This document shows positions 7,052 through 19,141 of a stretch of DNA of 64,000 nt, piece by piece (the stretch's first letter is position 1; every line of letters starts with the position of its first letter). Source of the stretch: Sulfuricurvum sp. Its GTDB lineage: Bacteria > Campylobacterota > Campylobacteria > Campylobacterales > Sulfurimonadaceae. The translations under genes were made by a program, and so were the position numbers. The stretch spans positions 186,001 through 250,000 of the forward strand of contig JAUYUB010000006.1 in NCBI GenBank assembly GCA_030692765.1, written 5' to 3'. The notes under the pieces were generated by a model that worked only from the letters and a program-made list of their open reading frames with translations, was not told where the DNA came from and ran no database searches.

Positions 7052-8854
7052 TTGGACACCATTCACATATCTACCTTCAACGTTCTTGACGAACTCAAAA
7101 GAATTGCACAGCAAGAACATCTTCCGCTGGAAGCGATCGATTTTGATCTGCTCTCCTACCAAACCCAATACAAGGGAATCGTTGATGAGGACTGGAAAGC
7201 TCTGGAAGGAGACAACCTCGAAGAGGTTACCACTGAAGTAGAAATACGATCAAAAATATTTTTCCTGCGCCAAGAATACTATATAAAGGTCCATCCTGCT
7301 ATTCAAAACCCGCATTTTGATCTTCGTTTCAGCATGGCTTTTAATAAATATCGAACCAAAATCGTAGCCGTTATTGATCCCGCTTCTAAAATACCTCTCA
7401 AAAAAGGGATACAGGAGTATCTCAAAGAAGCCATTTACCGTAAAAAACTGCGCAATGGCTATTTGGTCGGGATTACCGATCAAACATTGGATCAAGAGAT
7501 CAAGGCTTTACTTCTTAAAATCCAAAAAGAGGGCCCGCTAAAAGAGCCATACCGTTTGCCGATTGCCACTTTTTATTCACCTACTCTTCCAGTCAATGAC
7601 AATATCATCCTTCATTACAAAAAGATTCAACGTGAGAATAATCTTGTTGACGGTGTAGCAATAGACGATCTCATCTTTGAATATATCCTTCCACAAGATG
7701 GAATAGACGGGCGAAATTGTATGGGCGAGCATATTCATGTTGGTGAACCGCTCATACGTTATCAACATGCCATAGGTATCGACTCTCAAAGTATACGAGC
7801 CGAAGAAGATCACCAATCCATACGATTCTATGCCACCAAATCGGGATTCGTCGAGCGCAAGAACGGTCTCTTTACCATCAGTCAGGACCTACATTTAAAA
7901 AGTGCCAGCTTCAAAAGTACCGGTTCTCTCGAAGCAGGTAGCGAGAAAGAGATCAATATTAAAATAGGAGAAGGTGAAGAGGGAGATGACGCCATCGGCG
8001 CGGGTGTTAACATCGATGTCCAAACACTCGATGTCAAAGGAACGGTTGGCAGCAATACAAAGATCCAAGCCTGTGAAGTCACTATCGGAGCGCAAACCCA
8101 TAAAAAATCGTTGATCGAAGTAGAAGAAAATGCGACTATCCATTTGCACCGCGGAAATTTGAAAGCTAAAAATGCCACCATCAATATCCTTGAAGCCGGA
8201 ACGGTAGAAGCCAAGACGATCTATGTGAAAAACATGTCAGGAGGAGAGATCATTGCCGAACGTGTAATCATCGATGTACTGTATTCCAATGCCAAGATTA
8301 CGGCACTGGAATCGATTGAAATCAAAAGCATCGAGGGTAACGGCAACGAATTGATTATCAATCCGCGCGTAATACCGAGTTATTATGACCAAATCAGTGG
8401 TTTGGAAAGTGACTTGGCAAGCAAGCAGTTTGAGTTGCAAAAAAAGGGAAAAGAGTATCTTCAAAAAGAAGTCGCACTTCAAGAACAGTATCGACACATC
8501 GAACCTATCATCCAAAAGGTCAATCAAGCCATCCAGCAAAACCGTATTCCCAATAAAGCCGACAAAGTCAGAGTCATGCAATATAATTATTTTGCAGAAA
8601 CCCTCAAAAATGAAGAAATTATGATCAAAGCGCAAGAAGAGACGATACATGCACTCGAACGCAAACTCGATGGGCTTTATGATGCTGATCTGCATGCGGT
8701 TATAACGCATAGAAAAGAATACAATGGGCATACCCGTGTTCAATTTATATCTCCAAAAACAGGTAAGATTCACGCGGTATCGCCTAATGGAAGCGTAACT
8801 CATATCCGATTACACAAAGAAGGCGATGAAAAAAAATTCTTTTTTGAATCCTAA
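7052..8854 (+). CDS. FapA/DUF342 family protein, copy 1
   Basis: The 600-residue product has the FapA (DUF342) layout: an N-terminal domain with LSYQTQY, the signature DGIDGRNCMGEHI near residue 225, a long stretch of beta-strand repeats that would form a polymerised beta-helix (about residues 250-450), then a charged coiled coil (about 460-550). The start is TTG: a TGA in the same frame lies just upstream, and copy 2 begins at the matching TTG with a similar N-terminus. There is no signal peptide or membrane segment, so it should be cytoplasmic. In Vibrio vulnificus FapA affects flagellation; whether that holds here is unknown. It is followed 78 bases later by a paralogue. Confidence 0.85.
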   Translation: MDTIHISTFNVLDELKRIAQQEHLPLEAIDFDLLSYQTQYKGIVDEDWKALEGDNLEEVTTEVEIRSKIFFLRQEYYIKVHPAIQNPHFDLRFSMAFNKYRTKIVAVIDPASKIPLKKGIQEYLKEAIYRKKLRNGYLVGITDQTLDQEIKALLLKIQKEGPLKEPYRLPIATFYSPTLPVNDNIILHYKKIQRENNLVDGVAIDDLIFEYILPQDGIDGRNCMGEHIHVGEPLIRYQHAIGIDSQSIRAEEDHQSIRFYATKSGFVERKNGLFTISQDLHLKSASFKSTGSLEAGSEKEINIKIGEGEEGDDAIGAGVNIDVQTLDVKGTVGSNTKIQACEVTIGAQTHKKSLIEVEENATIHLHRGNLKAKNATINILEAGTVEAKTIYVKNMSGGEIIAERVIIDVLYSNAKITALESIEIKSIEGNGNELIINPRVIPSYYDQISGLESDLASKQFELQKKGKEYLQKEVALQEQYRHIEPIIQKVNQAIQQNRIPNKADKVRVMQYNYFAETLKNEEIMIKAQEETIHALERKLDGLYDADLHAVITHRKEYNGHTRVQFISPKTGKIHAVSPNGSVTHIRLHKEGDEKKFFFES

Positions 8855-8932: not shown

Positions 8933-10738
8933 TTGCATACAATCAAAATAACCACTTTTGCGGTTCCAAATGAGCTTAAAAAACTTGCGCAACAGTGGAA
9001 TCTCCCAGTCGATACTATTGACTTTGATGTACTCTCATATCAGACGCAGTATATAGGAGCTATTGACGAAGATTGGCGGACACTTGATGGTAATGATCTG
9101 GGTGAGATCACCACCGAAGTGGAAATACGCTCGCCCCTGTTGCTGATTCGGCAAGAGTATCAACTCCTGGTACGTCCTTTAGTACCGCATCCACATTTTA
9201 ATCTTCAATTCACTATGGCTTCAGACAAATATAAATCTAAACTGGTAGCCATTGTCGATCCCTCTTCGAGTCTTCCGCTCAAAAAAGGGTTGCAAGAGTA
9301 TTTAAAAGAGACCATTAGCCGTAAAAAACTGCGCAGCGGTTTTATGATTGGAATCACTGATGGTAGTCTTGAAAAAGAGATCAATGCGATGCTTCTCAAA
9401 ATTCAAAAAGAGGGTCCGCTTAAGGAGCCATACCGATTGCCCATCACGCACTTTTATCCGCCTATTACTCCAATCAATGACAACGTAATACTTCACTATA
9501 AAAAAATACAACGTAGTAATAATCTACTTGACGGGGTTGAGATAAATGACCTTATTATTGAATATATTCTTCCAAAAAATGGAGTAGATGGACGAAGCTG
9601 TACAGGAAAACATATCCATGTAGGTGATCCGCTAATTCGTTATGCCAATACAATCAAAACAGACCCCCAAAGTATCAGAGCCGAAGAAGATCACCATTCC
9701 ATACGATTCTATGCCACAAAATCCGGATTCGTCGAGCGCAAGAATGGTCTCTTTACCATCAGCCAAGATCTGTATTTAAAAAGTGCCAGCTTCAAAAGTA
9801 CCGGTTCTCTCGAAGCAGGCAGTGAGAAAGAGATCAATATTAAAATAGGAGCGGGCAGTAAAGCAGGTGATGATGCCATCGGATCAGGTGTCAATATCGA
9901 TGTTCAAACGCTCGATGTCAAAGGAACTGTTGGCAGCAATACAAAAATACAAGCCTGTGAAGTCACCATCGGAGCGCAAACTCATAAAAAATCATTTATC
10001 GAAGTAGAAGGAAATGCGACCATCCATCTGCATCGCGGAAATCTGAAAGCCAAACATGCCATCATTGATATCCTCGAAGCCGGAACCGTAGAAGCCCAAA
10101 CGGTATACGTCAAAACCATGTCAGGAGGAGAGATCATTGCCCAACGTGTCATCATCGATGTTCTCCACTCCAATGCCAAGATCACGGCATTGGAATCGAT
10201 TGAAATCAAACGCATTGCAGGAGATGGGAATGATCTTATCATCAACCCCAGAGCACTTCCAAGCTATTTGGAACAAATTACTGCTCTTGAGGATGAGTTG
10301 GCACGTAAACAACATGAATTGAGTGAAAGAGGCAAAAAATACCTGCAAAAAGAACTCCTCATGAAAGAAGAGCGTACGCGTATTCAGCGAACCATTAACA
10401 ATATTAATATCGCAAGCCGCCAAAATAAAGAACCCATGAAGTCTGATAAAGAACGTCTCACCCAATATAAAAGTGCGGTTGAATCCCTAAAAAACGAAGC
10501 GATTATGATCAAAGCGCAAGAAGAAGCCCTGCACGCATTTGAACGTAAACTCGATCATCTCTATGAAGCCGATCTGCAGGCAGTAGTGACACATCATAAA
10601 ACCTATGACGGAAATACTCGTGTGCAATTTATTGATCCCAAAACGCGCAGAGCCTACACTATCTCACCCAAAGGCAAGATCACTCATATACGATTACACA
10701 AAGAAGGCGACGAGAAAAAACTCTTTTTCGAATCCTAG
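8933..10738 (+). CDS. FapA/DUF342 family protein, copy 2
   Basis: The 601-residue product is a paralogue of the preceding gene with the same domain order: signature DGRSCTGKHIHVGDP near residue 225, beta-helix repeats, then a coiled coil. The central part from about residue 250 to 435 is almost identical to copy 1, while the N-terminal quarter and the coiled coil have clearly drifted. The last residues (HIRLHKEGDEKK then FFES) are again shared. It starts with TTG after GAGGAAAA. No signal peptide or membrane segment is seen. Tandem duplication with later sequence exchange in the middle is the simplest reading. The function is unknown beyond family membership. Confidence 0.85.
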   Translation: MHTIKITTFAVPNELKKLAQQWNLPVDTIDFDVLSYQTQYIGAIDEDWRTLDGNDLGEITTEVEIRSPLLLIRQEYQLLVRPLVPHPHFNLQFTMASDKYKSKLVAIVDPSSSLPLKKGLQEYLKETISRKKLRSGFMIGITDGSLEKEINAMLLKIQKEGPLKEPYRLPITHFYPPITPINDNVILHYKKIQRSNNLLDGVEINDLIIEYILPKNGVDGRSCTGKHIHVGDPLIRYANTIKTDPQSIRAEEDHHSIRFYATKSGFVERKNGLFTISQDLYLKSASFKSTGSLEAGSEKEINIKIGAGSKAGDDAIGSGVNIDVQTLDVKGTVGSNTKIQACEVTIGAQTHKKSFIEVEGNATIHLHRGNLKAKHAIIDILEAGTVEAQTVYVKTMSGGEIIAQRVIIDVLHSNAKITALESIEIKRIAGDGNDLIINPRALPSYLEQITALEDELARKQHELSERGKKYLQKELLMKEERTRIQRTINNINIASRQNKEPMKSDKERLTQYKSAVESLKNEAIMIKAQEEALHAFERKLDHLYEADLQAVVTHHKTYDGNTRVQFIDPKTRRAYTISPKGKITHIRLHKEGDEKKLFFES

Positions 10739-10918: not shown

Positions 10919-13498
10919 ATGCATTATGACCATCTTATCGGCTATATGTCCGATGTACAAAATTTTGAAAAGAACATGAGTTCCCTCTCCGATAAATGGA
11001 ATCTCTTAACCCTACTAGGTTCCATGTCCAATATCGGAATGGACACTAGCGAAACCCGAAAAGCATTTGAAGATTTACTCGATGAGCCTCTTATGCGTCT
11101 TACGCAAGAGACCTTTCATAAAAGCATTGATGAGCTTGAATCAAAAGCCCAATCGGCCATCGATATATTAATTCGCAATCTCTTTGAACGGACTGCCGAT
11201 ATCGGTTTTTTAGCAACCGATGATGATATTCGCCACTACCTTATGTTTCTGGGCACAACCGATACTTCCGTATCAGAAGAACTAAGACAGCTAAAACTAA
11301 CCAAAAAAGAAGCTCTTTCAAAATATTTTCACGAATACGTTGCCAAATACAGTGTTTATGATAACATCATCTTACTTGATACAAAAGGCAAAGTACTCGT
11401 ACAGCTTGATGAAACGAATCCCGTAAGCATCTCAAAAGACCCCCTCATCCAAGAATCATTAAGAACCCATCAAGGGTACGTCGAAACGTTCCGAACCAGT
11501 GATCTGACCCATCATAAGCCCTCTCTCATCTACTCCTATCGCGTTGATCACCCCCAAACCGAAGAACCACTGGGTGTTTTATGTTTAATGTTTAAATTTG
11601 AAGATGAACTCAAAAGTATTTTTCAAAAACTGACCCGTGAAAACCCTTACATCGCATTGGAGCTACTTAACCCGAAAGAGGAAGTTATTGCCTCTTCCTC
11701 TTCCCATCATGTCCCAGTTGGCGCACATTTACAAACACGTGCATGTGAAACACACCAAACCTATTATGCAGGATTTGAATATCTCTACAATGCGGTCAAG
11801 ACCACGGGCTATCAGGGGTATTTTGGGCCTGGATGGATCGGACATGCAATGATTCCTCTGCATCTGGCATTTCGTTCCTCTTCCCGACCTTCCTTTTCCA
11901 AAAATGAATTTTTTGATACCGTAGCCAATGCAACGGTTTTTTTCCCAAAAGAGCTCACCGATATTTTAGACAAAGCCAAAAAAATACAAACCGAACTGGA
12001 TATTACCGTATGGAATGGGAATGTCCAAATCGCCAATGCCTCCAACAATGAGAATCCGTTTACCAAAGCACTGCTCAATGAAATTTCAAAAACAGGGGAA
12101 GAGACCAAACTCATTTTTGACGATACCGTAGCCAATCTCAATACCGCAATGCTTGTGCGATACCTTGAGGATCAGAAATTTCAATCCTCACTGGCGATCG
12201 ACATTATGGATAGAAATCTCTTTGAGCGCGCAAATGATTCACGATGGTGGGCGCTTACAACAACCTTCCGGGAAATTCTTTCTCAAACCAGTATCACCCC
12301 CAACGACCGTGAAAAAATGAATTCGATTTTACTTACCATTAACGATCTTTATACGGTCTATACGTCGATGTTTATCTATGACCGAGATGGATTTATTGTT
12401 GCTGTCTCCAATACCAATGATACCCATTACATCGGTAAACGTGTCGGTTATAACTGGGCTTCCCAAACGCTTCGACTCGAGTCGACTCAAGAATACATTG
12501 TTTCCCCATTTGAACCGAGTATCTTTTATGACAACCGTTCTACCTATATTTACAACGCCTGTATCCAAGATTTTTCAAGGCAAGGAGTCGGAGGAATCGG
12601 TATCGTGTTTGACGCACAGCCTCAATTTGAAGCAATGCTTCACGATGTCCTTCCAAAAGATGAAAATCATGAAATTAAAGACGGCATGTTTGCCCTTTTC
12701 ATTGATCGTCAAGGACACGTTATTTCATCCACCACCAAAGAAATTGCCATTGGATCATCCGTTACGCTTCCGGAATCTATTTTACAGCTGTCAAATGGGC
12801 AAAGTGACGCACAAATGATTGAGTACAACGGAATATACTACACTGTAGGAGCCACCTGCTCCAGCGGCTACCGCGAATACAAACAAAGCGATGGATACAG
12901 CAACGATATTATTGCAATATTGTATCGTCCGATTGGAGAGTGTCAATCTCTCATCTATGAAGAGCCTGCCAGACGAACCTATACTTATCCAATAGCAGCC
13001 GGCGATGAAAAGACCTGTGAAATTTCAACGTTCTTTATTGGTAACTCGGTCTTTGCAATTGAATCCAAAGATGTAGTTTGCTCTTTAGTTCATCAAGAAT
13101 TAACATCAATTCTCCATGCCAGCGAATACAACCTCGGTGTCATCGGATATGATAAGCGGATGGTGAGCGTTATATCACTCGCCAAACTTTTAGGCATTGA
13201 GAAAAACTATGTTAAAGAAAGCGATACCATTATTATCGTAAAGACAGTTATCCAAGAACAGCTTATTTATCTTGCCCTTGCCGTCGATGCTATTTATAGC
13301 AGCCCTGAGATTCCATTACGTTCAATCAGCGAATACAGTAATATTCTGAAAAATGAAAATTCCCTAACCAAAGCAGTTATCATTCCCGACAGAGCTGAAG
13401 ATTTCGGAAACGAGATGATTTCCATCCTCGACATCCAAAAAATCTATACACAGCTTATTCAGCCTTACTCTCGAACATTGTACAAGATGACAATATGA
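10919..13498 (+). CDS. Soluble sensor protein with Cache-like regions and a C-terminal CheW-like domain
   Basis: The product is about 859 residues with no signal peptide and no membrane segment. The region to about residue 690 looks like two Cache/PAS-type sensor units, each preceded by a related helix (RNLFERTADIGFLATD near residue 86, RNLFERANDSRWWAL near 431) and containing core strands such as YDNIILLDTKGKVLVQLDE and MFIYDRDGFIVAVSNTND. From about residue 700 the sequence fits a CheW fold (STFFIGNSVFAIESKDVV, GVIGYDKRMVSVISLAKLLG, LALAVDAI), which in chemotaxis links receptors to CheA. The ATG at 10919 was chosen over GTG at 10913 because GAGGAG (10908-10913) fits it. It overlaps the EAL gene by ATGA. 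It may couple a cytoplasmic signal to CheA or control the EAL protein. Confidence 0.75.
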   Translation: MHYDHLIGYMSDVQNFEKNMSSLSDKWNLLTLLGSMSNIGMDTSETRKAFEDLLDEPLMRLTQETFHKSIDELESKAQSAIDILIRNLFERTADIGFLATDDDIRHYLMFLGTTDTSVSEELRQLKLTKKEALSKYFHEYVAKYSVYDNIILLDTKGKVLVQLDETNPVSISKDPLIQESLRTHQGYVETFRTSDLTHHKPSLIYSYRVDHPQTEEPLGVLCLMFKFEDELKSIFQKLTRENPYIALELLNPKEEVIASSSSHHVPVGAHLQTRACETHQTYYAGFEYLYNAVKTTGYQGYFGPGWIGHAMIPLHLAFRSSSRPSFSKNEFFDTVANATVFFPKELTDILDKAKKIQTELDITVWNGNVQIANASNNENPFTKALLNEISKTGEETKLIFDDTVANLNTAMLVRYLEDQKFQSSLAIDIMDRNLFERANDSRWWALTTTFREILSQTSITPNDREKMNSILLTINDLYTVYTSMFIYDRDGFIVAVSNTNDTHYIGKRVGYNWASQTLRLESTQEYIVSPFEPSIFYDNRSTYIYNACIQDFSRQGVGGIGIVFDAQPQFEAMLHDVLPKDENHEIKDGMFALFIDRQGHVISSTTKEIAIGSSVTLPESILQLSNGQSDAQMIEYNGIYYTVGATCSSGYREYKQSDGYSNDIIAILYRPIGECQSLIYEEPARRTYTYPIAAGDEKTCEISTFFIGNSVFAIESKDVVCSLVHQELTSILHASEYNLGVIGYDKRMVSVISLAKLLGIEKNYVKESDTIIIVKTVIQEQLIYLALAVDAIYSSPEIPLRSISEYSNILKNENSLTKAVIIPDRAEDFGNEMISILDIQKIYTQLIQPYSRTLYKMTI

Positions 13499-14712
13499 GC
13501 GCTTTAGTGCAAGGAATATACACGGAAAATATCACCGATATATTGAAAGAGGAAAGGCTGGTTGTCCATTTACAGCCAATTCTTTCTCTTAGAGGTCGAA
13601 CATTGTTCGGCTTTGAAGCACTCATTAGAGGTGTGGGCAAGGAAGGGGAAATACTTTCCCCTGAATGGCTTTTTTCAGAAGCAAAAAAAGCAGATCTCAG
13701 CTGTGAGCTTGATCGACAAGCAAGACTTTTAGCCATAAATACATTTGTCTCTTTTTGGAGGAAAAATAATAAACTTCTTTTGTTTGTAAATTTTGAATCC
13801 GAATTAATTGATGGGTTTAAACCCGAAAATTATCTTTTTGACGGGTTATTAAAAAACCTTGGAATTCCGTACTTCAATATTGTTTTAGAGATAAAAGAAG
13901 ACGAGATAAACGATGTGAATAAGCTCAATGCATTTTGCAACCATTACCGATCACTTGGATTTACTATTGCATTGGATGATTTCGGTGTAGGTCAACAAAG
14001 TTTTGATCGATTAGCAATCGTTCGTCCTGATATTATCAAAATAGACCGTTCTCTCATCTCAGGGATAGGAAACAACTATATTCATCAAGAAATCGTTCAA
14101 GCAATCTGTAAAATGAGCAGCGGCATCGGCGCCCTGACTTTAGCTGAAGGGGTAGAGACGCTTGAAGAAGCGGTATATTCAAAACATCTTGGGATAACAT
14201 TGGTACAAGGGTTCTGGTTTGCAAAACCTTCCGTAGAGCTCATTGACACAGATTTTGAATTTAAAATCGAGAGGATAAAAATACAGTGTCAAAAAATGAT
14301 GATGAATTTTCAGCATGGGTACGATACCCTTTGTGCCAAAGCAGGAGATTCATGTCAAAAAATTTATAAAGCCATACTTGAAGCCCCCGATTTGTCTCAA
14401 TGGCATATGCATGTGAAGTCTGCATTGGAAAACGAGTCTGACATTGAAGCGCTTTATCTGATTGACACGAATGGCAAACAAGTAGGAGATACCTTTATGC
14501 AGTGTACGGCACGTTCTTTTTACGAACCAACTGCACATGGCAGCGATCACACCTTTGGTGAGTACTATGTTCGTGCCAGAGAATCAGCAAACGGGTATCA
14601 TTTAACAAATAATTATTTATCTTTGGCCTCAGGGAATGTTTGTCTGACGTATTCGTGTACAAGATTAATCAAAGATCAAATTTATGTCCTTTGCATTGAT
14701 TTTACAAAATGA
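13495..14712 (+). CDS. EAL-domain c-di-GMP phosphodiesterase with a C-terminal sensor-like domain
   Basis: Of 405 residues, about the first 255 form an EAL domain. The motifs for an active enzyme are visible: FEALIRG, the metal-ligand Asn in FVNFES, Glu in LEIKED, the ALDDFGVG pair of aspartates, Lys in IIKIDRSLI and Glu in AEGVET, then QGFWFAKP. It should therefore hydrolyse c-di-GMP to pGpG. The C-terminal 145 residues (ALYLIDTNGKQV, then LTNNYLSLASGNVCLTYS) resemble the Cache-like domain at the end of YkuI-type EAL proteins, by inference only. There is no membrane segment. The ATG overlaps the stop of the CheW-like gene (ATGA), implying coupled translation and joint function, and a GGDEF gene follows after 27 bases. 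Confidence 0.9.
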   Translation: MSALVQGIYTENITDILKEERLVVHLQPILSLRGRTLFGFEALIRGVGKEGEILSPEWLFSEAKKADLSCELDRQARLLAINTFVSFWRKNNKLLLFVNFESELIDGFKPENYLFDGLLKNLGIPYFNIVLEIKEDEINDVNKLNAFCNHYRSLGFTIALDDFGVGQQSFDRLAIVRPDIIKIDRSLISGIGNNYIHQEIVQAICKMSSGIGALTLAEGVETLEEAVYSKHLGITLVQGFWFAKPSVELIDTDFEFKIERIKIQCQKMMMNFQHGYDTLCAKAGDSCQKIYKAILEAPDLSQWHMHVKSALENESDIEALYLIDTNGKQVGDTFMQCTARSFYEPTAHGSDHTFGEYYVRARESANGYHLTNNYLSLASGNVCLTYSCTRLIKDQIYVLCIDFTK

Positions 14713-14739
14713 TTTTTTAGAATAAAGGGGTTTGCATCT

Positions 14740-16008
14740 GTGCGAAATGAAGCTATGGAAATAAATTTTACCAAACGCTATGCATTAGCGCTTATGTTAA
14801 TTGCTCTTTTATCTACAGGAACGCTCTACATTGTAGAATTTGCCTTAAAAGCCAGTGATTTTACAGCACTCATTGTCAATAAATCAGCAAAACAAAGAAT
14901 GTACTCTCAACGTATCGCTTCTTTTTCTCAACAATACTATCGATGTACTTATATCAAACAAAATTGTTCAGATCATGCAACGGTACAACTCATCCTCGAA
15001 GAAGCTATACATGAAATGCGTCAGGCCAACAATACGTTATCTTCTGGAAACATAAAAAAAGATGTAGAAATCAACCTCTCCACTACAATGAGCGAAATTT
15101 ACTTTGGAGACATTAATCTTAAAAAGAGAGTCAATGATTATCTCGATCTTGCCAAAAAATTAACGCAAACACAAACACAAGAAGAAGCTCTTGAGATTTT
15201 AGATCATCTTCTTTTGGTTTCAAATCCCCTGCTCGTTGACCTAAATGCAGCTGTCTATCAATATCAAAAAGAAGGGGAAGAAAATATTGCAAATATCAGA
15301 TATCTAGAGATATTTGCGTGGTTATTAACTCTTTTTACATTGCTCATTGAAGTGATCTTTATTTTTCAGCCGATGGCGAATGCAATTAAACTATTTATTC
15401 AAAATGAAAGATCTCACAAAGAACGTCTTGAACAAGAAATTAAAATAAGGACCCACAGTCTTGAACAGGCAAATCAAAAGCTTATCTATAATGCTTCGCA
15501 CGACCCTCTGACTGGGCTAAACAATCGCTTTAATTTTGAGCGGGAACTTGGAAATATACTCTCTAATTATCATCTTAATAATGTCCCATTTTCGGTTTTA
15601 ATGTTGGATATAGACTGGTTTAAAAAAATCAATGATACCTATGGCCATAACGTTGGCGATCATGTTTTAAAAGAGCTATCGACACTTTTAAGTGCAGCGA
15701 TACGAACTGAAGACAGTGCTTACCGTACAGGCGGAGAAGAGTTTGTCATTATTCTAAATCGCATATCCAAATTAGATGCGATTAAAAAAGCTGAAGAAAT
15801 ACGTCATAGTGTCGAAAATTATACATTTAGCTGCGATGGGTATATCTTTAACATTACGATTAGTTGTGGAGTATATCATTCACAATGCATTGAAGCGCAA
15901 GATGTTCATGAAGTCATGAAGTTAGTAGATGATGCACTCTATAAGGCTAAACATTTAGGCCGAAATCGCATTGTCTTGGGAGAATTATATGTCCCAACCG
16001 TATTATAA
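14740..16008 (+). CDS. Membrane diguanylate cyclase with PilJ-type sensor domain
   Basis: The 422-residue product has TM1 (about 14-32), a periplasmic domain starting with SAKQRMYSQRIASFSQQYY, which is the PilJ/NarX-like type IV pilus transducer motif, TM2 (about 190-210), a short coiled coil and a GGDEF domain. The active-site motif is GGEEF (near residue 331), with an RTED allosteric I-site five residues before it, so it should make c-di-GMP and be product-inhibited. GTG at 14740 is chosen because AAAGGGG ends nine bases upstream; the ATG at 14755 is too far from it. It closes the operon with the EAL gene, so cyclase and phosphodiesterase are made together. A decayed relative lies at 60958-61436. 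Confidence 0.92.
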   Translation: MRNEAMEINFTKRYALALMLIALLSTGTLYIVEFALKASDFTALIVNKSAKQRMYSQRIASFSQQYYRCTYIKQNCSDHATVQLILEEAIHEMRQANNTLSSGNIKKDVEINLSTTMSEIYFGDINLKKRVNDYLDLAKKLTQTQTQEEALEILDHLLLVSNPLLVDLNAAVYQYQKEGEENIANIRYLEIFAWLLTLFTLLIEVIFIFQPMANAIKLFIQNERSHKERLEQEIKIRTHSLEQANQKLIYNASHDPLTGLNNRFNFERELGNILSNYHLNNVPFSVLMLDIDWFKKINDTYGHNVGDHVLKELSTLLSAAIRTEDSAYRTGGEEFVIILNRISKLDAIKKAEEIRHSVENYTFSCDGYIFNITISCGVYHSQCIEAQDVHEVMKLVDDALYKAKHLGRNRIVLGELYVPTVL

Positions 16009-16125
16009 AAATGAGGTTGCCGATTGCAGGGTTTTAAAGAAAGGGATCTGTTTTCCTCTCAAATAGCACTGTGCATCTTCCATCTCATGCCCACCCAAAA
16101 GAATCGGATAAATTTTTTCTCTTCT

Positions 16126-19053
16126 TTACGCTTCTGAATAGCTCAACCTCAAACCATCCTCGCTCATAACAAACCCATGAATGGCAATTTTGCCCTCATG
16201 CACCAAGCGATGGTGCTTTGAACAAAGCGGGATTAAATTGTAGCGGTGGTTCATTCCAAAATGACCGATCGATCCCCCCTCATCCGCATTGGCCTGAGGA
16301 ATGATGTGATGCACTTCGTCCACCGCCTCATCGCACAATGCGCATTTCGTCAGATACAGCTTACTGTTATAACGGCTTTTTTTCTCCCGTTTGAGCTGTG
16401 CGATCTCACCCTTGGTATCGCCGATACGCCCTCGTATCTCATACGCTTTTTGGATAAAGGTCTCATCCATGTGCAGCGATTTGGCAAACTCCAATCCGTA
16501 GAGGGTGCTTCCGCTCCCATTTTTAAGCTTACGATCATAGACGAGCTTATCCGTGGCCTCATCGTAATAGACTCCTAAATGCAGTAATACAATATTCTGT
16601 GCTTTTTGGATTTCGCTCAAAGAGGAGAGCTGATGCAAATGGGTGGCAAAGATAAACAAACTGCCAATCTCCCGTAATTTTAAAATCGCACTCGCCACAA
16701 TCGCCAATGCCGACTCGGTCTCCGTACCGTGACTGATCTCATCCCCTAAAATCAAACTGTTAGGTGTTGCACGGTTGAAAATATTACGCAGTTCCAACAT
16801 CTCTACAGCAAACGTGGAAAGTCCCTTATACAAATTATCTTTGGAAACGATACGCGTTAGCAGTTTATCCACGGGAGAAAATCGCATCATCGCACAGGGG
16901 ACAAAAAATCCTGCTTGTGCCATTACCACTGCAATACCGATACTTTTCATCAGCGACGACTTACCGCTGGAGTTGATACCGTACAGCAAGACACCATTGA
17001 CCTCTTTGGCATCTTCAAGTGTCGTGTGTTCTGCGTAGGTGTGATTGGCCCCGTCCCCCAAAAACAGATCATTTGGAATAAAGATACCGTTTTCTTCACG
17101 CGACTCTATCAACGGATGACGCAATCCCACTGCCTCGATAAATGTCTTTGGCTCATTATCCACCAAGGCGGGACGGACATAGCGGTATTGTTTCGCTACC
17201 TTTGCTGAACTCAAAGATACATCGATAACCGCTAAAAAAGAGATCAAATGCTCTATCGCATGGGAAAACCGTTTTTCGATGATTTCCATATGCTCGCGGT
17301 AGCGTTCTTTGACCATCGCCAGCATTCTGGATTTTGCCCCTGCATTTTCGATGGAAAGCTCATCCAACAGTGTAGAGGTGAGCTTCACCGTCGTCTTGAG
17401 TTTACGTATCTGAAAATCACGGAAAAAATAGTGTGTCCCCTCAATCGTGAAAAAGCTGTTGTACAGTACTTCCTCCACATTGACATAGCGGTTACGGGTC
17501 ATTAGCAGATGATACCCCTCACTCTCCAACCAGCCGATTGCAGCATACGGACCGCTTCCCCCTTCAAAATGCTGATCTATATGATCAATAATCAGCTGCA
17601 GCTTCGACTCATTGGTCTCTTGCAGTTTCTCCAATGCATCAATAGCAGGGTCAATCCCCTCATTAAAGAGGTTTTCATTCACCTGATCACGCCGATATTT
17701 CGCACACGAATCAATATCAAAAATACGTTTCAACTCACTGGCACACAACCCTGCTTCGACAGCACTGTTTTTGTCATAATCGATCCCTAGACGCTTTGCA
17801 TCCGCGAACAAGCTCTCAGCAGCACTCAACGATGCATGAAAATACGCCAATTCATAGGGGTGCAACTTACCCAGTTTCAGACGGCGCAGAATCCGTTCAA
17901 GATCATAGACCTCTTTGAGTTTGGTTTCCAGTGGTGCGATATGATCTTGCATTTTCTCAATCAGATCATAGCGTTCATTTAATAAGCTTGAATCGCAGAT
18001 AGGGTTAAGCAAGCGTTCGCGCAGCAGCCTTTTCCCCATCGCCGTCGATGTTTTATCGATAAGTTTGAGCAGTGTCATCTCATCATTATCTCTGGAAATG
18101 ATCCCCAGTTGTTCCGCCGCATTATTGCCCAGATACATATAGCGGTTAGTTCCCAAGAAGGTTGGACGGTTCATCTTTTCGATGATAGCGGGATCATGAT
18201 CAATGATTGTATGGATTAACAGTGCCAGCGACTCCGAAGCATACGCAAAGCGCTCCAAATCCAAATACTCGATCGGGCTTAACAAAGAGCGTATTTGATA
18301 GATACGTTCAAACAGTTCATTTTGATAGTCAATACGCAATCTCTTCTCATTACGGTTGCTACGGTGATGGCTTTTGAGTTCTAAATAGCGATTGACCTCT
18401 TCAACATCAATACTGCTATCACAAAAGGTCACCACCACTTCAGAAGTGAGATAACTTTGCAACAGGGTAAAGATCTCATCTAGGGCATATGTTTTGTCCT
18501 CACGCGTCCCATGTATCTCATTGATCAGTGTTTTACCCGTCCCAACATCGATGGCGGCATACCCTACCGAATAGACACCGTTATTTTGATCTATCAAAAG
18601 AGAGGCAATGTAGTTCTCACTCACTTCAGCAATGTAATCAAAATTCGTACCCGGAGAGATGATATTGGAAATGTAACGTTTGATATGAGGCGGTTCGCCC
18701 TGCTGACGTACCAGGACAATGGTGTATTTTTTGGATTGTACCAAACGGCTGAGATAACGTTCGATAGAGACCGCAGGAACCCCTGCTAAAAGGGGATTTT
18801 GGACAGAGTTTTCAAGTATCGTTTTGTTTTTTCGAGTGAGCTGAATGTTCAGAAATTCGGCAACCTCTTTGGCCTTACCAATTTTCATCGTTTCATTGTT
18901 GACTTCATAGATCTCGAAAAAAGTCCCAATTTCGATAATAACGAGAGCATCGGGACCATATTTAGCTTGACACGCACGCTGAAGGTCAAAATAAACTTCC
19001 GAGAGGAGCTTGTTTTTACTTTGTAACAATGCCCCTATCTCTTCGATATTCAT
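16126..19053 (-). CDS. MutS-family mismatch repair protein with C-terminal HNH endonuclease (MutS7-like)
   Basis: About 975 residues. The N-terminal mismatch-recognition domain has GTFFEIYE (Phe45 and Glu47 match the Phe-x-Glu of MutS1). Core and clamp regions follow, then the ATPase with Walker [14 protein letters not shown] near residue 690 and [16 protein letters not shown] as Walker B. The last 80 residues are an HNH nuclease: [16 protein letters not shown], then [16 protein letters not shown]. MutS plus HNH is the MutS7 arrangement known from octocoral mitochondria, giant viruses and Campylobacterota. It may recognise and nick mismatched DNA by itself, since this phylum generally lacks MutL and MutH. 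ATG 19053 is preferred because a weak GGGTGAG site precedes it; ATG 19071 is the alternative. Confidence 0.88.
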
Positions 19054-19141
19054 CCACTCACCCACAGTCATAAAAGTAAAAGATTATAACAAAGAGGGGC
19101 TAAAAGAAGACAGTTTGGAAGAAGAATTAAAAGGAAAAGCA

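Follow-up and report, generated by a model that had tools for sequence, protein, structure and literature searches.

This locus raises the question of whether three adjacent genes of a Sulfuricurvum sp., encoding a CheW-bearing protein (p1), an EAL phosphodiesterase (p2) and a GGDEF protein (p3), form a unit through which one signal acts on both the chemotaxis array and c-di-GMP turnover, as an initial annotation had proposed. The window, i.e. the whole stretch of 64,000 nucleotides that was analysed, covers positions 186001-250000 of contig C7, in a genome of 2.15 Mb that is 99.9% complete. It contains the following features:

10919..13498, + strand: p1, soluble dCache-dCache-CheW protein of 859 aa (Pfam CheW; no TM; phylum-wide orthologues)
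11096..11953, + strand: first dCache-like module of p1, residues ~60-345 (Pfam in orthologue L024, similarity to the second module, low-confidence fold match)
12128..12940, + strand: second dCache module of p1, residues 404-674 (AF2 model, VIA fold matches, sequence identity to soluble-MCP dCache)
13028..13447, + strand: CheW-like domain of p1, residues 704-843 (PF01584)
13490..16006, + strand: insert of the two genes p2 and p3, as compared with sister locus L009 (junction comparison, blastn)
13495..14712, + strand: p2, EAL phosphodiesterase with a YkuI-like C-terminal PAS/Cache-type domain, 405 aa (PF00563, YkuI alignment)
14242..14709, + strand: C-terminal sensor-like domain of p2 (14 family members conserve it, and it aligns with the C-terminal domain of YkuI)
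14740..16008, + strand: p3, membrane diguanylate cyclase, TM-(PilJ-like)-TM-GGDEF (GGDEF profile, hydrophobic segment at 189-210)
16003..16132, - strand: remnant of an acetate-CoA-ligase/acyl-CoA-synthetase-like gene (blastn matches L009 10628-10758 at 87% over 131 nt, after which the alignment jumps to the MutS gene)

An AGGAG-like sequence lies directly 5' of the p1 ATG. No 19-residue window of p1 exceeds a Kyte-Doolittle value of 1.77, and this maximum falls within the CheW fold; p1 is therefore considered to have neither a membrane segment nor a signal peptide, in line with the initial description of an 859-residue protein free of membrane segments. A Pfam search gave no match in p1 to the MCP signalling hairpin (PF00015, MCPsignal), so p1 is not an MCP chemoreceptor. 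Its CheW-like C-terminal end, first read from the letters only, was recovered by the profile PF01584 with 51.4 bits (cut-off 23.5), and an independent genome search gave 55.9 bits at the same place. Since the CheW part is poorly modelled by AF2, its identity rests on these profiles. The initial Cache reading was right as well; that two dCache modules precede the CheW domain had been overlooked, as had the YkuI-like C-terminal domain of p2.

Residues 404-674 have AF2 pLDDT values of mostly 65-89 and show the two PAS-like subdomains on a long helix that define a dCache. VIA matched them to DctB and further dCache sensors at Z scores of about 20-21, with an rmsd of 2.4-3.1 for most of the best dCache structures over about 215-240 residues. 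The first module reached a fold-match Z of about 14, from a low-confidence model. Mean pLDDT is 53 for the whole of p1 and 46 for residues 1-404, with low confidence outside the Cache cores, so the evidence for the first dCache comes from sequence together with that model. The dCache_1 profile scores 40.6 bits in p1 itself, under the cut-off of 45, and 55.2 bits, over the cut-off, in orthologue L024 (residues 62-271). The first and second modules resemble each other (E=1e-6, in a single comparison), and the tandem is best read as an internal duplication.

A canonical CheW is a single-domain protein with conserved Glu38, Gly57, Arg62 and Gly63 (E. coli numbering). Aligned to the genome's own CheW, CheV and CheA domains, the multidomain p1 retains only the Gly57 equivalent (G740), with C721 at the position of Glu38, D745 at that of Arg62 and K746 at that of Gly63; p1 is thus not a canonical CheW coupling protein. 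In the E. coli class, Glu38 and Arg62 form a conserved salt bridge joining the receptor- and kinase-binding sites (PMC3828127). Because p1 lacks this pair as well as Gly63, its CheW domain may deviate from the standard mode of coupling. Some distant p1 paralogues retain Glu at the first of these positions, and two more CheW proteins of the same genome, L006 and L008, are also without the Arg. Across the p1 family, identity is about 53-54% for the Cache modules and 38% for CheW, a pattern suggesting that the intracellular input is conserved and that the coupling interface has relaxed or changed. Among the Sulfuricurvum orthologues, CheW is the better conserved (84% identical, against 74% for the second Cache).

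A translated search of plasmids retrieved distant relatives in Alpha- and Betaproteobacteria. The three that were analysed are short proteins without TM, in which an MCP signalling segment is followed by one dCache, and their dCache has the motif NL[YF]ER..D.RWWA in common with the p1 Cache. MCPsignal lies over the Pfam cut-off in two of the three (74 and 58 bits); the third, a Rhizobium ORF that may be truncated, scores 22.9 bits, under the cut-off. The second dCache of p1 shares 29-30% identity with the C-terminal dCache found in soluble MCPs such as WP_060148510.1 of Burkholderia stagnalis and a Tistrella mobilis ORF, which resemble p1 in being soluble, chemosensory and equipped with a homologous cytoplasmic dCache. 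Based on this shared motif and homology, the Cache part of p1 belongs to a cytoplasmic dCache type that already serves soluble chemoreceptors. Soluble MCPs carry one dCache behind the MCP hairpin, whereas p1 has the dCache doubled, ahead of a CheW domain that takes the place of the hairpin. MtpA of Methylobacterium, also considered as a relative of p1, is a cytosolic MCP for which the MCP domain alone was reported (PMC10613068). In Methylobacterium currus, L161:1558-3706 holds an annotated MCP matching the p1 Cache region, then a GGDEF gene.

As its dCache modules are homologous to those of soluble, membrane-free MCPs, p1 is most likely a cytoplasmic CheW-fused chemosensor, with a logic similar, by analogy, to that of Treponema CheWS. 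CheWS of Treponema denticola binds CheA and SAM, and its authors describe it as the first chemotaxis sensor fused to CheW to have been characterised (PMC10653840). Both would be soluble, CheW-fused intracellular sensors without an MCP signalling hairpin, but the p1 sensor is a tandem dCache N-terminal to CheW, while that of CheWS is a CheR-like SAM domain C-terminal to it; CheA binding and a ligand are established for CheWS only. CheV and CheW-CZB also join a CheW domain to an extra regulatory domain, a receiver domain and a zinc-binding domain respectively; unlike p1, neither has Cache modules. The domain order of p1 had been noted initially as not known to be characterised, and the literature searched, apart from the architectures in Fig. 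S10 of PMC10653840, indeed gave no match to a cytoplasmic dCache-CheW protein. That figure holds 30 undescribed CheW architectures, and the p1 type may be among them. What appears to be new is the joining of a tandem dCache to CheW, together with how widely this architecture is distributed; it is a variant within the class of CheW-fused sensors, which is already known (PMC10653840).

Among named relatives, those nearest to p1 come from Sulfuricurvum MAGs. Relatives were found in 71 of the 228 genomes of the family (E<=0.001, the weakest among them matching in the CheW part only) and, at E<=1e-30, in 58 of 397 genomes sampled from Campylobacterota (20 of 68 genera). Each of the 50 genomes in which a CheW-bearing p1 is readable also has CheA; overall, 27 of the 228 are without it. 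Independence predicts about six CheA-less p1 carriers (hypergeometric P about 8e-4, a value confounded by ancestry). G065, in which p1 is split over contig ends, gave no CheA match. Most p1 genes sit away from chemotaxis genes, and family members of about 620-640 aa without CheW exist, implying that the dCache pair can function in the absence of an array. Loci L097-L104 hold such paralogues (about 624-639 aa), with the Cache modules kept and the CheW domain absent. A second chemosensory cluster of the genome (L152, G000:C6:44000-63000) encodes a PAS protein, a soluble MCP, a triple-CheW protein, CheB, CheR, CheY-like proteins, CheA (its frame apparently broken in this assembly), two CheW and a ParA-like ATPase. 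A dependence of p1 on this C6 cluster was ruled out, as many p1 genomes lack the triple-CheW protein.

Turning to p2, its EAL domain (PF00563) scores 171.8 bits, and its start at 13495 overlaps the end of p1 at 13498 by ATGA, as annotated before. The catalytic residues, earlier described as all visible, form a full set (E41, N99, E132, D161/D162, K182, E218 and Q238) that is nearly invariant in 14 relatives, and by these residues p2 is predicted to be a catalytically competent EAL phosphodiesterase. Residues 21-399, nearly the full length, align to YkuI (2bas; E=1.5e-21, phmmer), which places p2 in the YkuI family. YkuI of Bacillus subtilis (PDB 2bas, 2w27) has the same combination of EAL and a C-terminal PAS/Cache-type domain; p2 differs in retaining the DDFG aspartates, where YkuI has DN, and in adjoining a chemosensory gene.

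The p3 gene has a GTG start at 14740, 27 nt past the end of p2. Its GGDEF domain (PF00990) scores 149.9 bits, and the GGEEF motif and RxxD inhibitory site are readable, identifying p3 as a diguanylate cyclase. Of the PilJ-sensor cyclase first described 27 bases after p2, the cyclase and the spacing thus stand; PilJ (PF13675) matches with 24.8 bits, below the Pfam cut-off of 26.6, which makes the PilJ type only suggestive. Homologues of p3 occur in 19 of 41 genus members, adjoining p1 only in the window's genome and in G059, the closest EAL-bearing relative of the window locus. In other genomes, p2 and p3 homologues lie at unrelated sites.

Sister locus L009, whose p1 is 95% identical, has an empty p2-p3 site: p1 joins directly to the gene beyond p3. 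The p1 tree groups L009 with L010 (support 84), which makes a loss of the pair in L009 and its original absence there both compatible with the data. The acetate-CoA-ligase/acyl-CoA-synthetase-like gene is full-length in L009, L010 and L011 and has decayed beside the insert in the window. The neighbouring minus-strand gene at 16126-19071 encodes a MutS-type protein with MutS I, III and V domains and a C-terminal HNH endonuclease domain, which corresponds to the MutS7 type, a relative of the mitochondrial MutS of octocorals. Elsewhere in the window, tandem FapA_N/DUF342-type genes (7052-8854 and 8933-10738) are 71% identical; several relatives have a single copy and, where the second would be, a SelO gene.

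Gene neighbourhoods were counted for the 66 CheW-bearing p1 loci with a readable downstream neighbour. In five of them (the window, L010, L079, L084 and L088), an EAL-YkuI_C gene comes next after p1 in the same orientation; in the other 61, no EAL gene of any kind follows p1 on its strand. Most p1 genes have a gap of 60-200 bp before them and a convergent gene after them. A conserved p1-p2-p3 or CheW-EAL operon was therefore ruled out, also in view of L009, and p2-p3 is, as judged from these comparisons, a recent, lineage-specific add-on beside p1 that is missing in most relatives. The initial annotation had proposed profile searches for CheW and a count of how often the two genes stay adjacent; the CheW similarity was found, while for most of the family the p1 homologues are scattered without the EAL gene. 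Its unit of array and c-di-GMP signalling is thereby weakened as a general rule and retained as a lineage-specific possibility, since the adjacency recurs. In three genomes of another genus (G216, G151 and G189), EAL-YkuI_C genes lie 15-30 bp behind p1 paralogues, so the adjacency needs at least two origins, the EAL tree requiring a minimum of two changes in p1-adjacency; the recurrence falls in two distinct p1 clades. By a rough post hoc estimate, with about two of six independent EAL-YkuI_C contexts beside p1 and p1 at 1-2 copies per ~2200 genes, the chance of this is of the order of 1e-4. A loose, recurrent association of EAL-YkuI_C with chemosensory genes is plausible. In two genomes, a CZB-domain MCP has an EAL-YkuI_C gene immediately downstream of it (L105:4645-7415 and L108:4953-7576). 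Elsewhere, the family lies beside groEL, a molybdopterin oxidoreductase or pilC, and G036 has EAL-YkuI_C without CheA.

The reading we favour, and regard as reasonably probable, is that p1 is a cytoplasmic tandem-dCache CheW chemosensor behind which p2-p3 was added as a lineage-specific pair. The chemosensor part draws on the CheW score over cut-off, solubility, the fold of the second dCache, the soluble-MCP homology, CheA co-occurrence, the conserved sensor modules and the known precedents; the lost Glu38/Arg62/Gly63, the distance from chemotaxis genes, the CheW-less paralogues, the phylogenetic confounding of CheA and G065 count against it. Two rivals concern p1 itself. With its E38, R62 and G63 equivalents lost, p1 could be a decoy or adaptor scaffold whose degenerate CheW binds CheA P5 or CheW rings and not receptors, so that arrays are diluted or remodelled; we consider this improbable, as sensor modules more conserved than CheW suggest that sensing matters. 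A vestigial CheW, with the tandem dCache acting on a non-chemotactic target, would suit the CheW-less paralogues and the lower conservation of CheW across the family, but is slightly more improbable still: the domain is kept phylum-wide, exceeds the second Cache in identity among the Sulfuricurvum orthologues, and p1 co-occurs with CheA.

The other rivals concern the pair. That p2-p3 came to lie behind p1 by chance, sharing read-through transcription only, is a serious possibility, given that the 27 EAL matches and many GGDEF genes in 2.15 Mb make such neighbours unremarkable, that p2 and p3 homologues occupy unrelated sites, and that unrelated GGDEF-EAL genes are convergent neighbours of several p1 loci; the return of one specific EAL family behind p1 in two distinct clades speaks against it. 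Conversely, p1 might recruit p2 to the array in a dedicated bipartite complex, one signal setting both CheA activity and local c-di-GMP breakdown. The ATGA overlap, a sign of translational coupling, the recurrence 15-30 bp behind p1 paralogues in G216, G151 and G189, the minimum of two origins and the CZB-MCP neighbours are consistent with this. By analogy, so is the Pch phosphodiesterase of Pseudomonas aeruginosa, which has been shown experimentally to depend on CheA for its localisation and activity (PMC3861689); should p1 and p2 interact, p2 would be a comparable phosphodiesterase linked to the chemotaxis machinery, the experimental CheA link being that of Pch. With 61 of 66 p1 loci and L009 lacking the gene, and EAL-YkuI_C also found in non-chemosensory contexts and without CheA, such a complex is nevertheless unlikely.

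Under the favoured reading of a chemosensor with an added pair, p1 would sense a ligand or metabolic state inside the cell via its two dCache modules and alter CheA activity or array composition by taking a CheW-like site, without being an MCP. In this lineage, the soluble YkuI-like p2, with its own sensor-like tail, and the membrane cyclase p3 are probably co-expressed with p1, by which motility signalling and c-di-GMP turnover would be regulated together transcriptionally; direct p1-p2 contact is possible. Of this picture, the domains, the solubility of p1, the homology, the distribution and the insert were established here, and ligand sensing, binding to CheA or the array, operon co-expression and any effect on c-di-GMP were inferred. 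A bolder proposal, that soluble tandem-dCache CheW sensors are a second array-input class throughout Campylobacterota and that one and the same YkuI-like EAL phosphodiesterase was captured by them in at least two lineages to give a ligand-controlled array/c-di-GMP complex, is held here as speculative and doubtful. If p1 does join the array, signals would enter chemotaxis via the coupling ring itself and not via receptors, and such entry would then be widespread in a phylum of environmental importance. With its recurrent EAL neighbour, p1 offers a way to test for a link between chemotaxis and c-di-GMP in sister strains with and without the insert.
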